DNA of 64,000 bases from Aureispira sp. (GTDB taxonomy: Bacteria > Bacteroidota > Bacteroidia > Chitinophagales > Saprospiraceae). Location: positions 1 to 64,000 of the forward strand of contig JAAEPD010000087.1 of NCBI GenBank assembly GCA_024222455.1, in the 5' to 3' direction. The notes below the pieces were generated by a model. It did no database searches, was not told where the DNA came from, and saw nothing but the letters and a program-made list of their open reading frames with translations. Both the position numbers and the translations under genes were made by a program. This document shows positions 10,364 to 13,446 of this stretch, piece by piece (position 1 is the first letter of the stretch; each line of letters opens with the position of its first letter).

Positions 10364-12301
10364 TTAGCCCTCTGCATCTAACAATTCTTGGAAGAACTGA
10401 GTAAAGGCATCAACCGATAATGCACCTTTGTCTCCATCCTCTACACCTTGTAGACGTACCGAAACAGTACCACTTTCCACCTCTTTTTCTCCAACAATTA
10501 GCATCAATGGAATACGTTTAAGCTCAGTATCTCTAATCTTGCGACCTACAGTCTCGTTACGAGCATCTACATAACCACGAATATCTTTTTCTTCCAGTTT
10601 GTTTTTGATGTTCTCTGCATATTCCACAAAACGATCAGACACTGGAATCAGTACATATTGCTCAGGAGTTAACCACAGCGGGAATTTACCGGCAGTATGC
10701 TCTATCAGTACCGAAATGAAACGCTCCAATGAACCAAATGGAGCACGGTGAATCATAACAGGACGGTGTGTTTGGTTATCAGAACCAACATACTCTAGCT
10801 CAAAACGCTCTGGTAAGTTATAATCTACCTGTATAGTACCCAACTGCCAAGAACGACCCAAAGCATCACGCACCATGAAATCCAATTTAGGACCATAAAA
10901 TGCAGCTTCACCTAGCTCAGTTACTGTTTTTAAGCCCTTTTCTTGAGTAGCTTCTATAATCGCATTTTCGGCAGCGTTCCAGTTTTCGTCAGAACCGATG
11001 TATTTTTCTGGCTTTTCTGGATCACGCAAAGAGATTTGAGCAGTAAACTCACTAAAGCCCATTTTCTTGAAAACATGCAGTGTTAAATCAATTACATCCA
11101 AGAACTCAGCTTTTAACTGATCTGTAGTACAGAAAATATGTGCATCATCTTGAGTAAAACAACGTACTCTAGATAGACCATGCAACTCCCCACTTTGCTC
11201 ATAGCGGTACACTGTACCAAACTCTGCAATACGCATTGGCAATTCTTTGTAAGAATGCGGTTTGTGTGCAAAAATCTCACAGTGATGAGGACAGTTCATT
11301 GGTTTTAGCATAAACTCTTCATCCTCTTTTGGAGTTTGAATAGGTTGGAAGCTATCTTCCCCATACTTCTCATAGTGTCCAGAAGTGATGTATAAGTTTT
11401 TATGTCCAATATGTGGTGTAGATACCAATTGGTATCCACGTCTAATTTGTTCCTTAGTTAAAAAATCTTGTAAGCGGTTACGTAGTGCAGTACCCTTTGG
11501 CAACCAAATTGGTAAACCAGCACCTACTTTTTCCGAAAACATAAACAATTCTAACTCTTTACCCAACTTACGGTGATCACGCTTCTTAGCTTCCTCTAGC
11601 ATGACTAAATACTCTTTGAGTGCTTTAGCTTTAGGGAAAGATATACCATAAATACGAGTTAATTGCTGACGAGTCTCATCGCCACGCCAGTAAGCACCTG
11701 CAATGTTCAAGAGTTTAACTGCTTTGATAAAACCAGTATGTGGGATGTGAGGCCCTCTACACAAGTCAGTAAAATTACCTTGTTGGTAGAATGTAATATT
11801 CCCATCTTCTAAGCCTTCTAAGAGTTCCAGCTTGTATTCATCATCTTTTTCTTTGAAATAACTGATGGCATCCGCTTTAGAAATAGATGTGCGGACATAC
11901 TCGTTTTTCTGACGAGCCAACTCAATCATTTTTTTCTCAATGGCTTCCAATTCATTACCAGAAATGGTACGTTCTCCTAAGTCGATATCGTAGTAAAATC
12001 CATTCTCGATAGGAGGTCCAATGGCAAATTTGATACCTGGATAGAGTGCCTCTAGAGCCTCTGCCATTAAGTGTGCACTAGAATGCCAGAAGGCAGATTT
12101 GCCACCATCTTCACGAAAGGTCAACAACTTGATATTAGAGCTGTCGGTAATTGGGCGTGTTGCATCCCATATTTCACCGTTAATCTCGGCTGCTAATACA
12201 TTTCTTGCTAAGCCTTCGCTAATCGATTTGGCTACTTCTAGTCCAGTTACTCCCGATTCATACTTACGAACGCTGCCATCAGGAAGAGTGATGTCAATCA
12301 T
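10364..12301 (-). CDS. thrS: Threonyl-tRNA synthetase
   Basis: Class II aminoacyl-tRNA synthetase that attaches threonine to tRNA-Thr. The full-length domain order is present: TGS domain (residues 1-61, [17 protein letters not shown]), editing/SAD domain with [11 protein letters not shown] and 'FTDLCRGPH', catalytic core with the zinc-binding and motif 2 region ([10 protein letters not shown], '[16 protein letters not shown]', '[13 protein letters not shown]'), motif 3 ([11 protein letters not shown]), and the anticodon-binding domain ('[16 protein letters not shown]'). At 645 aa it is normal in length. It is a single gene bounded by its own terminator. The leader contains an elaborate inverted-repeat structure (see 12338-12417) likely to regulate it. 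Confidence 0.97.
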
Positions 12302-12337
12302 AATTTTTTGTTTGTTAAAAAAGTGAATAAATTAATC

Positions 12338-12417
12338 ATAGTTTGTGAATTTTTTCTACTCAATTGAGTAGAAAAAATACTGCTCTTTTTATTCTAGAAT
12401 AAAAAGACACAAACTAT
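12338..12417 (-). promoter_or_regulatory. thrS leader: perfect three-way-junction structure
   Basis: Three nested perfect inverted repeats: an outer 10-bp stem (12338-12347 with 12408-12417) encloses a 30-bp perfect palindrome (12349-12378) and a 24-bp perfect palindrome (12384-12407), joined by linkers of 1, 5 and 0 nt. It lies 37-116 nt before the thrS ATG and would sit in the 5' leader if transcription starts upstream. It may be an RNA regulatory element (E. coli thrS is autoregulated through a leader operator) or a small MITE-like DNA element. No T-box or anticodon-like loop was identified. Confidence 0.6.
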
Positions 12418-12492
12418 CTAATAAAAAACTCTCAACCAACCGTTATTGACTACAAACTCAAGCGTATTGGTCAAGCGCACCAAAAATACAGA

Positions 12493-12582: not shown

Positions 12583-13446
12583 CTATTTGATAACAATCAT
12601 TTTTTTGCTCTGAACTTCGCCTTTATCTGTTCTGATACTGTATAGGTATGTACCACTAGACAACTCTTGTGTAGAAATTCGAAGATGATCAAACTGCTGA
12701 TCAATAGTATAGTTTTTAAGCATTACACCATCAATGGTATAAATAGTTAATACAGCTTTTTCTACATCTTGGGGTAATTGATAATTGATGTTTGTATAGT
12801 TTTGGGCAGGATTGGGGCTGTTCTCCATTTCAAAAGCAGAATTGACTACACTAGGGCTTCTGAAACCAGTAATACTCCCACAAGGATCACAACTCAACGT
12901 ACCTGGTAAGGAGTAAACATAAGCAGCTGTACTAGGATAATCAGAGTCTGATAAAATCATTTTTGTTCCATTAGTTGCTGTATTAAAAATAGAAGATAAA
13001 ATATCTGTAGATTTATAAACAGGTCTAACATTCCCTTGCTTGAACAAAATAGAACCTGTTTCATTAATTATAGCTGTAATAACAGTGTCATTATTATTAA
13101 CAGAATTATAGCCGTCAATCATTAACATAAACTCAACTTCTGCATCTTGGTCAAATAATCCTTCTTTTATATAGAACACTCTATTGGTATATTCATCATA
13201 AGCATTTGTATCTATAAGGTTAACAGTAGGTATGCTGATTGTTTTATAGATTGAATGATTTAGGTTATATATATTAACTTCCCAGGCATTACTTTGAACT
13301 ACATATTTTTTTCCTGCACTTTCTAAATTAGCTACATCCATAGGAGCTGCTGATCCTTGAGAATAATTATAAATATGTTCTAATCCTATTTGGGCTTGAG
13401 TAGCCAAGAATATAAAAGAGAAAATTAAGGTTGATAATACTCGCAT
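12583..13446 (-). CDS. T9SS-exported protein with sorting domain
   Basis: Signal peptide (to about residue 18, ATQAQ), a body of about 190 residues with no recognised fold, and a C-terminal T9SS sorting domain (about 210-287) with its hallmarks: 'NSPNPAQNYTNINYQLP', 'LTIYTIDGVMLK', 'SGTYLYSIRTDKGEVQSKKM' ending in IVIK. Such proteins cross the inner membrane by Sec and the outer membrane by the type IX system, then are released or anchored on the surface. Its upstream region has no AACGAA array, unlike the four cargo genes in 25.7-42.4 kb. Role unknown. Confidence 0.85.
   Translation of the reverse strand: MRVLSTLIFSFIFLATQAQIGLEHIYNYSQGSAAPMDVANLESAGKKYVVQSNAWEVNIYNLNHSIYKTISIPTVNLIDTNAYDEYTNRVFYIKEGLFDQDAEVEFMLMIDGYNSVNNNDTVITAIINETGSILFKQGNVRPVYKSTDILSSIFNTATNGTKMILSDSDYPSTAAYVYSLPGTLSCDPCGSITGFRSPSVVNSAFEMENSPNPAQNYTNINYQLPQDVEKAVLTIYTIDGVMLKNYTIDQQFDHLRISTQELSSGTYLYSIRTDKGEVQSKKMIVIK

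Follow-up and report, generated by a model that had tools for sequence, protein, structure and literature searches.

A perfect three-way junction upstream of thrS

Shortly before the threonyl-tRNA synthetase gene (thrS) of an Aureispira genome, three perfect inverted repeats are nested so that they could close a three-way junction. A preliminary description of this locus left two readings, a leader regulator of thrS or a tiny mobile hairpin element, and the question is which of them applies. The structure lies in a 64,000-nt stretch of DNA, referred to below as the window. Direct reading of the sequence bore out the geometry that had been described: a 10-bp outer stem (ATAGTTTGTG pairing with CACAAACTAT) encloses palindromes of 30 nt (ATTTTTTCTACTCAATTGAGTAGAAAAAAT) and 24 nt (TCTTTTTATTCTAGAATAAAAAGA), with linkers of 1, 5 and 0 nt (Table 1). 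The placement 37–116 nt upstream of thrS was also correct, given a minus-strand thrS start at 12301. The minimum free energy of the structure was −29.6 kcal/mol as against −8.95 ± 2.23 in dinucleotide shuffles (z = −9.3), and none of 200 shuffles equalled its stability. No Rfam family was matched by this sequence at gathering score, and relaxed searches gave only chance-level matches on the element.

One point was missing from the preliminary description: the element has polarity. A covariance model built from 32 aligned copies (see below) scored the window copy at 74.4 bits on the plus strand and at 42.9 bits on the minus strand; the copy is thus oriented opposite to thrS. Its ends fall slightly beyond the outer stem and are flanked by AATTA and AATAA.

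Table 1. Features of the thrS-proximal element copy and its surroundings (window coordinates)
Feature	Position	Strand	Basis
Left target-site duplication copy, AATTA	12330–12334	+	Register set by 85 copies; 4/5 match to right copy
Short-form element copy, hairpin 1 collapsed	12335–12419	+	Covariance model, 74.4 bits, E 1.9e-11 (whole genome)
Outer stem 5' arm = left terminal inverted repeat	12338–12347	+	Sequence; helix 1 covaries in 32 copies
Hairpin 1, perfect 30-nt palindrome (full-length copies: 22-bp stem, ~40-nt variable loop)	12349–12378	+	Sequence; long forms
Junction linker ACTGC, within conserved TACTGCT motif (12378–12384)	12379–12383	+	Conservation across alignments A1 and A3
Hairpin 2, perfect 24-nt palindrome; family consensus aTTTTTAGCTTGATAAAGyTAAAAAt	12384–12407	+	Sequence, alignment, covariation
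Outer stem 3' arm = right terminal inverted repeat	12408–12417	+	Sequence; covariation
Right target-site duplication copy, AATAA	12420–12424	+	Register from 85 copies
thrS; insertion in upstream region; runs against element polarity	10364–12301	−	ORF of 645 aa; relatives 70–82% identity
Neighbouring ORF, 287 aa, other side of insertion	12583–13446	−	ORF list

Copy number and distribution

The search for the same sequence elsewhere in the genome (7.76 Mb in 683 contigs; Saprospiraceae), which the preliminary description had proposed, was carried out at three levels. The window sequence as a DNA query returned partial relatives at once, a consensus query returned at least 40 copies at 78–92% identity, and the covariance model returned ~90 copies at E < 1e-3, located at unrelated loci. 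The copies mostly occur one per contig and therefore do not form a cassette array; an integron attC array was rejected because the copies are dispersed. Among the 32 aligned copies, no pair exceeds about 90% identity. A second, decayed copy is found on the contig of the window but outside it (L109, 2509–2601; C87:106208–106300), and an ORF is called across it.

Thirty relatives from the same family and order gave no match to the covariance model. Nor did the remaining 294 members of a 295-genome sample of the class, which were screened with stricter filters that lose weak matches. The thrS loci of 24 relatives were inspected individually and lack the element, with no match better than E 0.3; the nearest named relatives by thrS similarity are Aureispira sp. 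CCB-QB1 and Saprospira grandis (81–82% protein identity). The exact core motif was not found in viral contigs or in a genome contig collection (in which the genome itself may be hidden), and the long consensus was not found in plasmids or phages. Judging from the sequences searched, the element is a species- or genus-specific repeat family.

Anatomy of the element

Full-length copies measure about 148 bp and are organized as 5'-ACATTAGTNNRTGAAG (hairpin 1: 22 bp, ~40-nt variable loop) TACTGCT (hairpin 2: 11 bp) gCAYNNACTATTA-3', the end sequence of the element being TAATAGTNNRTG. Lengths between the end motifs peak near 81–86 and 142–143 nt. The long form shares its outer stem and hairpin 2 with the short form and differs in hairpin 1. 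Short forms, including the window copy, look like the product of a collapse of the long hairpin 1 stem; in the window copy, hairpin 1 would have shrunk and the palindromes would have become perfect. Nearly all full copies keep TAGTNNRTG, TACTGCT and CAYNNACTATT. The terminal inverted repeats (TAGTNNRTG / CAYNNACTA) have 95.8% of cells paired in the 32 copies, with imperfect pairing in the outermost 3–4 nt. Further derivatives exist: L050 lacks hairpin 1, and L143, L148 and L151 have a single hairpin. Together with L153, the latter three (C257, C75, C225 and C376 in the order L143, L148, L151, L153) are deletion derivatives with the outer stem or one hairpin only, and several lie shortly before a start codon.

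Target-site duplication

The flanks of 85 copies anchored on both end motifs were compared. The left flank at −9 to −5 before TAGT matches the right flank at +1 to +5 after ACTATT, with z of 3.1–5.0 per position and 9.4 for the five-base block, whereas positions farther along the same diagonal do not match (near zero). The scan covered several offsets and widths; the signal nevertheless lies on one diagonal and is far above the effect of that choice. It corresponds to a decayed 5-bp target-site duplication: the two pentamers are identical in 13 of the 85 copies (0.7 expected) and match at four of five positions in 10 others (4.9 expected), the window copy showing such a 4/5 match.

Covariation and the fold of one strand

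Covariation between copies was seen in each of the three helices. In the 32-copy alignment, double changes affect 10 pairs and 49 cells, as compared with 3.9 pairs and 11.7 cells in shuffles; none of 500 shuffles reached the observed covariation, and, since kinship among copies inflates such shuffle tests, slid-partner controls, which retain kinship, were also run and gave at most 8 cells. Within the outer stem, the three positions that vary are occupied by C-G, U-A, G-C and other pairs, while the flanking AGT and TG are fixed. The stem of the long form covaries too, although two of five measures for that alignment fall within the shuffle range.

G.U pairs outnumber A.C mismatches by 54 to 13 in a structure-blind alignment (41:13 without the most G.U-rich pair), and therefore it is the fold of one strand that is conserved. 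Strand-biased mutation was considered as a source of this excess and rejected, as unpaired positions display no such bias (C>T 13/96, G>A 20/125). When copies were split by orientation, the G.U:A.C ratio was 69:10 in sense (++) copies and 27:6 in reverse (−−) copies, i.e. the same asymmetry. This comparison draws on modest counts and on an alignment that had been fitted to the model, and a share of the G.U pairs is inherited. Selection on host mRNAs predicts the opposite bias in reverse copies; therefore, the fold belongs to the element and not to host leaders. The simplest reading of these alignments would be that selection acted on the fold of the element prior to insertion. A compensatory one-strand fold in both orientations makes it testable whether folds of bacterial MITEs are selected for mobility or for effects on host mRNAs.

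Gene context of the copies

In tandem gene pairs (genes in all placement counts are mechanical ORF calls), 32 copies have the sense orientation and 17 the reverse (P = 0.044). For the best-preserved copies the counts are 20 and 6 (P = 0.009), a lean that gives a hint of leader function. Sense copies typically have their right end 6–40 nt ahead of the start codon. There are 26 copies between divergent genes and 3 between convergent ones, but promoter-region targeting was rejected as an explanation, because divergent intergenic DNA is ~3 times longer than convergent intergenic DNA (measured in the window) and this largely accounts for the excess. A Pfam scan of 30 downstream proteins revealed no common pathway, the genes including those for a sulfatase, MutS, 3-dehydroquinate synthase, isocitrate dehydrogenase, PaaA, response regulators and a helicase; this makes a regulon unlikely. 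Some copies may have been domesticated at a later time.

A probable non-autonomous mobile element

We conclude, with a probability of about 0.83, that the structure in the window is one copy of a MITE-like transposable element, non-autonomous and restricted to the species or genus, and not a thrS switch. Several features of MITEs are found: (i) a length of ~81–150 bp, (ii) absence of a transposase gene, (iii) ~90 dispersed copies, (iv) terminal inverted repeats and (v) a target-site duplication of fixed length, 5 bp. Short target duplications of fixed length, produced by a cut with a 5-nt stagger in the case of 5 bp, are the usual mark of DDE-type transposition, and for this reason we infer that a DDE-type transposase acting in trans would have cut the target with a 5-nt stagger before insertion. 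The window copy would have inserted in this manner between thrS and the 287-aa ORF, antisense to thrS, and any effect on thrS would be incidental. The family would by now be old and mostly immobile, because the duplications have decayed, the copies are at most about 90% identical to one another and an autonomous partner was not found. The strand asymmetry is common to copies in either orientation relative to host genes, and the one-strand fold was therefore presumably selected during multiplication, in a transcript of the element or at a single-stranded DNA stage. To our knowledge, strong one-strand covariation is not usual for DDE-type MITEs, which counts against this explanation.

The partner was sought at limited depth by end-motif, PF01609, PF00665 and Y1 transposase searches of the 683-contig assembly, and none carrying the element ends was found. 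This is weak evidence, as the assembly breaks at IS copies. No matching end pair accompanies the PF01609 and PF00665 transposase loci, and the one Y1 transposase is a truncated fragment at a contig end. Candidates that were rejected comprise left ends lacking a right end, which turned out to be either long forms, decayed copies or deletion derivatives; one-ended right motifs, which are decayed copies or chance matches; and CATTAGTTAATGAA, present at 19 contig ends and internal to an unrelated high-copy IS. These contig ends (L237–L255, e.g. in C208, C453 and C582) belong to a high-copy insertion sequence that breaks the assembly and has one end, TAACGTGAACTAAGGATTAG, unlike that of the element.

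Alternative explanations

A cis-regulatory leader RNA, specific to thrS or of a more general class, would sense a signal and control the gene downstream. The covarying helices with their tolerance of G.U on one strand, the short distance of sense copies from start codons and the preference of well-preserved copies for the sense orientation all speak for such an RNA; however, the window copy is antisense to thrS, about one-third of the tandem copies are reversed with the same strand asymmetry, the genes downstream of the other copies share no function, intergenic length accounts for much of the placement, target-site duplications are present and Rfam gave no known regulatory RNA family such as T-box. 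As the sequence occurs at unrelated loci and is absent from the thrS leaders of the 24 relatives, the thrS regulator of the preliminary description is not supported, and a leader RNA of any class seems very improbable; the other reading put forward there, a tiny mobile hairpin element, holds, in view of the ~90 unrelated loci and the 5-bp duplication. A compatible addition to the MITE reading is that some sense copies have been domesticated as mRNA stabilizers, RNase III sites or translation modulators. There is precedent in NEMIS and ERIC transcripts (PMC2229807; PMC10969869), and the 20:6 bias and the proximity to start codons fit, but the bias is modest and was examined at several cut-offs, and insertion into short tandem intergenic gaps yields the same distances; we regard domestication as a minor but realistic possibility.

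The conserved fold itself allows other origins. Template switching during replication (quasipalindrome correction) could keep palindromes perfect and create covariation without selection, as the window palindromes, perfect yet unlike the consensus, might suggest. It predicts no excess of G.U over A.C unless correction is one-stranded, against the 54:13 observed, and AGT and TG are conserved around the variable NNR while NNR covaries, which makes this origin improbable. Movement as a folded single strand, by peel-and-paste as in IS200/IS605 or REPIN/RAYT or by attC-like integron recombination, would agree with a one-strand fold conserved at the level of the element, but the copies are not arrayed, the sole Y1 transposase is truncated at a contig end and the element has a 5-bp target-site duplication, which as far as we know is expected neither from Y1/HUH transposition nor from attC recombination; we give this mode very little credence. 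A further reading, in which the element multiplies through a folded single-strand stage (its own three-way-junction RNA or ssDNA) yet integrates by a 5-bp staggered cut, is speculative and rather unlikely; if true, selection on mobility itself would preserve the fold of one strand.

Comparison with known elements

Correia/NEMIS elements of Neisseria have TA as target, and BOX elements of Streptococcus pneumoniae are structured and modular. Correia/NEMIS, a MITE, resembles the present element in its two length forms, high copy number and structure, but forms a single stem-loop by end pairing, unlike the closed three-way junction and 5-bp duplication found here. Its forms of 107 and 155 bp differ by a 50-bp internal sequence, and its high-copy repeats yield a structured transcript (PMC2229807). 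ERIC/IRU of enterobacteria is a 127-bp structured, mostly intergenic MITE with reported orientation-dependent effects on mRNA (PMC2229807); its sequence, fold and hosts differ. CIR elements of Caulobacter and Brucella likewise have two hairpin arms joined by a linker (PMC2229807), but with a GANTC motif and no described enclosing stem. RUP of S. pneumoniae is 107 bp long and has 108 intergenic copies (PMC2229807); it inserts at TA and is associated with IS630-Spn1, whereas no comparable partner was found here. BrickBuilt of Porphyromonas gingivalis is a Bacteroidota MITE with predicted stem-loops (PMC4596501), but contains a minisatellite and has duplications of unequal length and unrelated ends. 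REPIN/RAYT consists of dispersed palindromic doublets whose folded DNA has been proposed as transposase substrate (PMC3116915); no duplication is expected there, in contrast to the 5 bp seen here, and no intact Y1 transposase was found in the genome.

Bacterial MITEs are generally AT-rich and intergenic, with transcripts forming stable stem-loops (review, PMC10969869). No MITE family of Saprospiraceae was found in the literature searched. The element is a new MITE family with a fold, a closed three-way junction, that is unusual for the bacterial MITEs described so far: the predicted structure combines an enclosing stem and two arms, with helices backed by covariation. A plausible but wrong regulatory reading is thereby corrected and a MITE family added for Saprospiraceae.

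Copies at a retron-like and a putative synthetase locus

One copy lies beside a reverse transcriptase, and a retron ncRNA was therefore considered and rejected: the locus has retron-like units of its own, and the element is inserted between those and the gene. The start of contig C470 (L136, 1–2649) encodes a retron-type reverse transcriptase (best PADLOC model RT_XIII, 668 bits), preceded by ~3 ncRNA-like units in tandem, every one containing a long and nearly perfect hairpin of its own that differs in sequence; the copy separates this array from the start of the reverse transcriptase. A single-hairpin derivative (L138, C177:8517–8538) is located immediately upstream of an ORF that starts with MSLPKHYDAQAAEKKWYQYW and resembles a valyl-tRNA synthetase; that this neighbour, like thrS, would be a tRNA synthetase gene is probably a coincidence.
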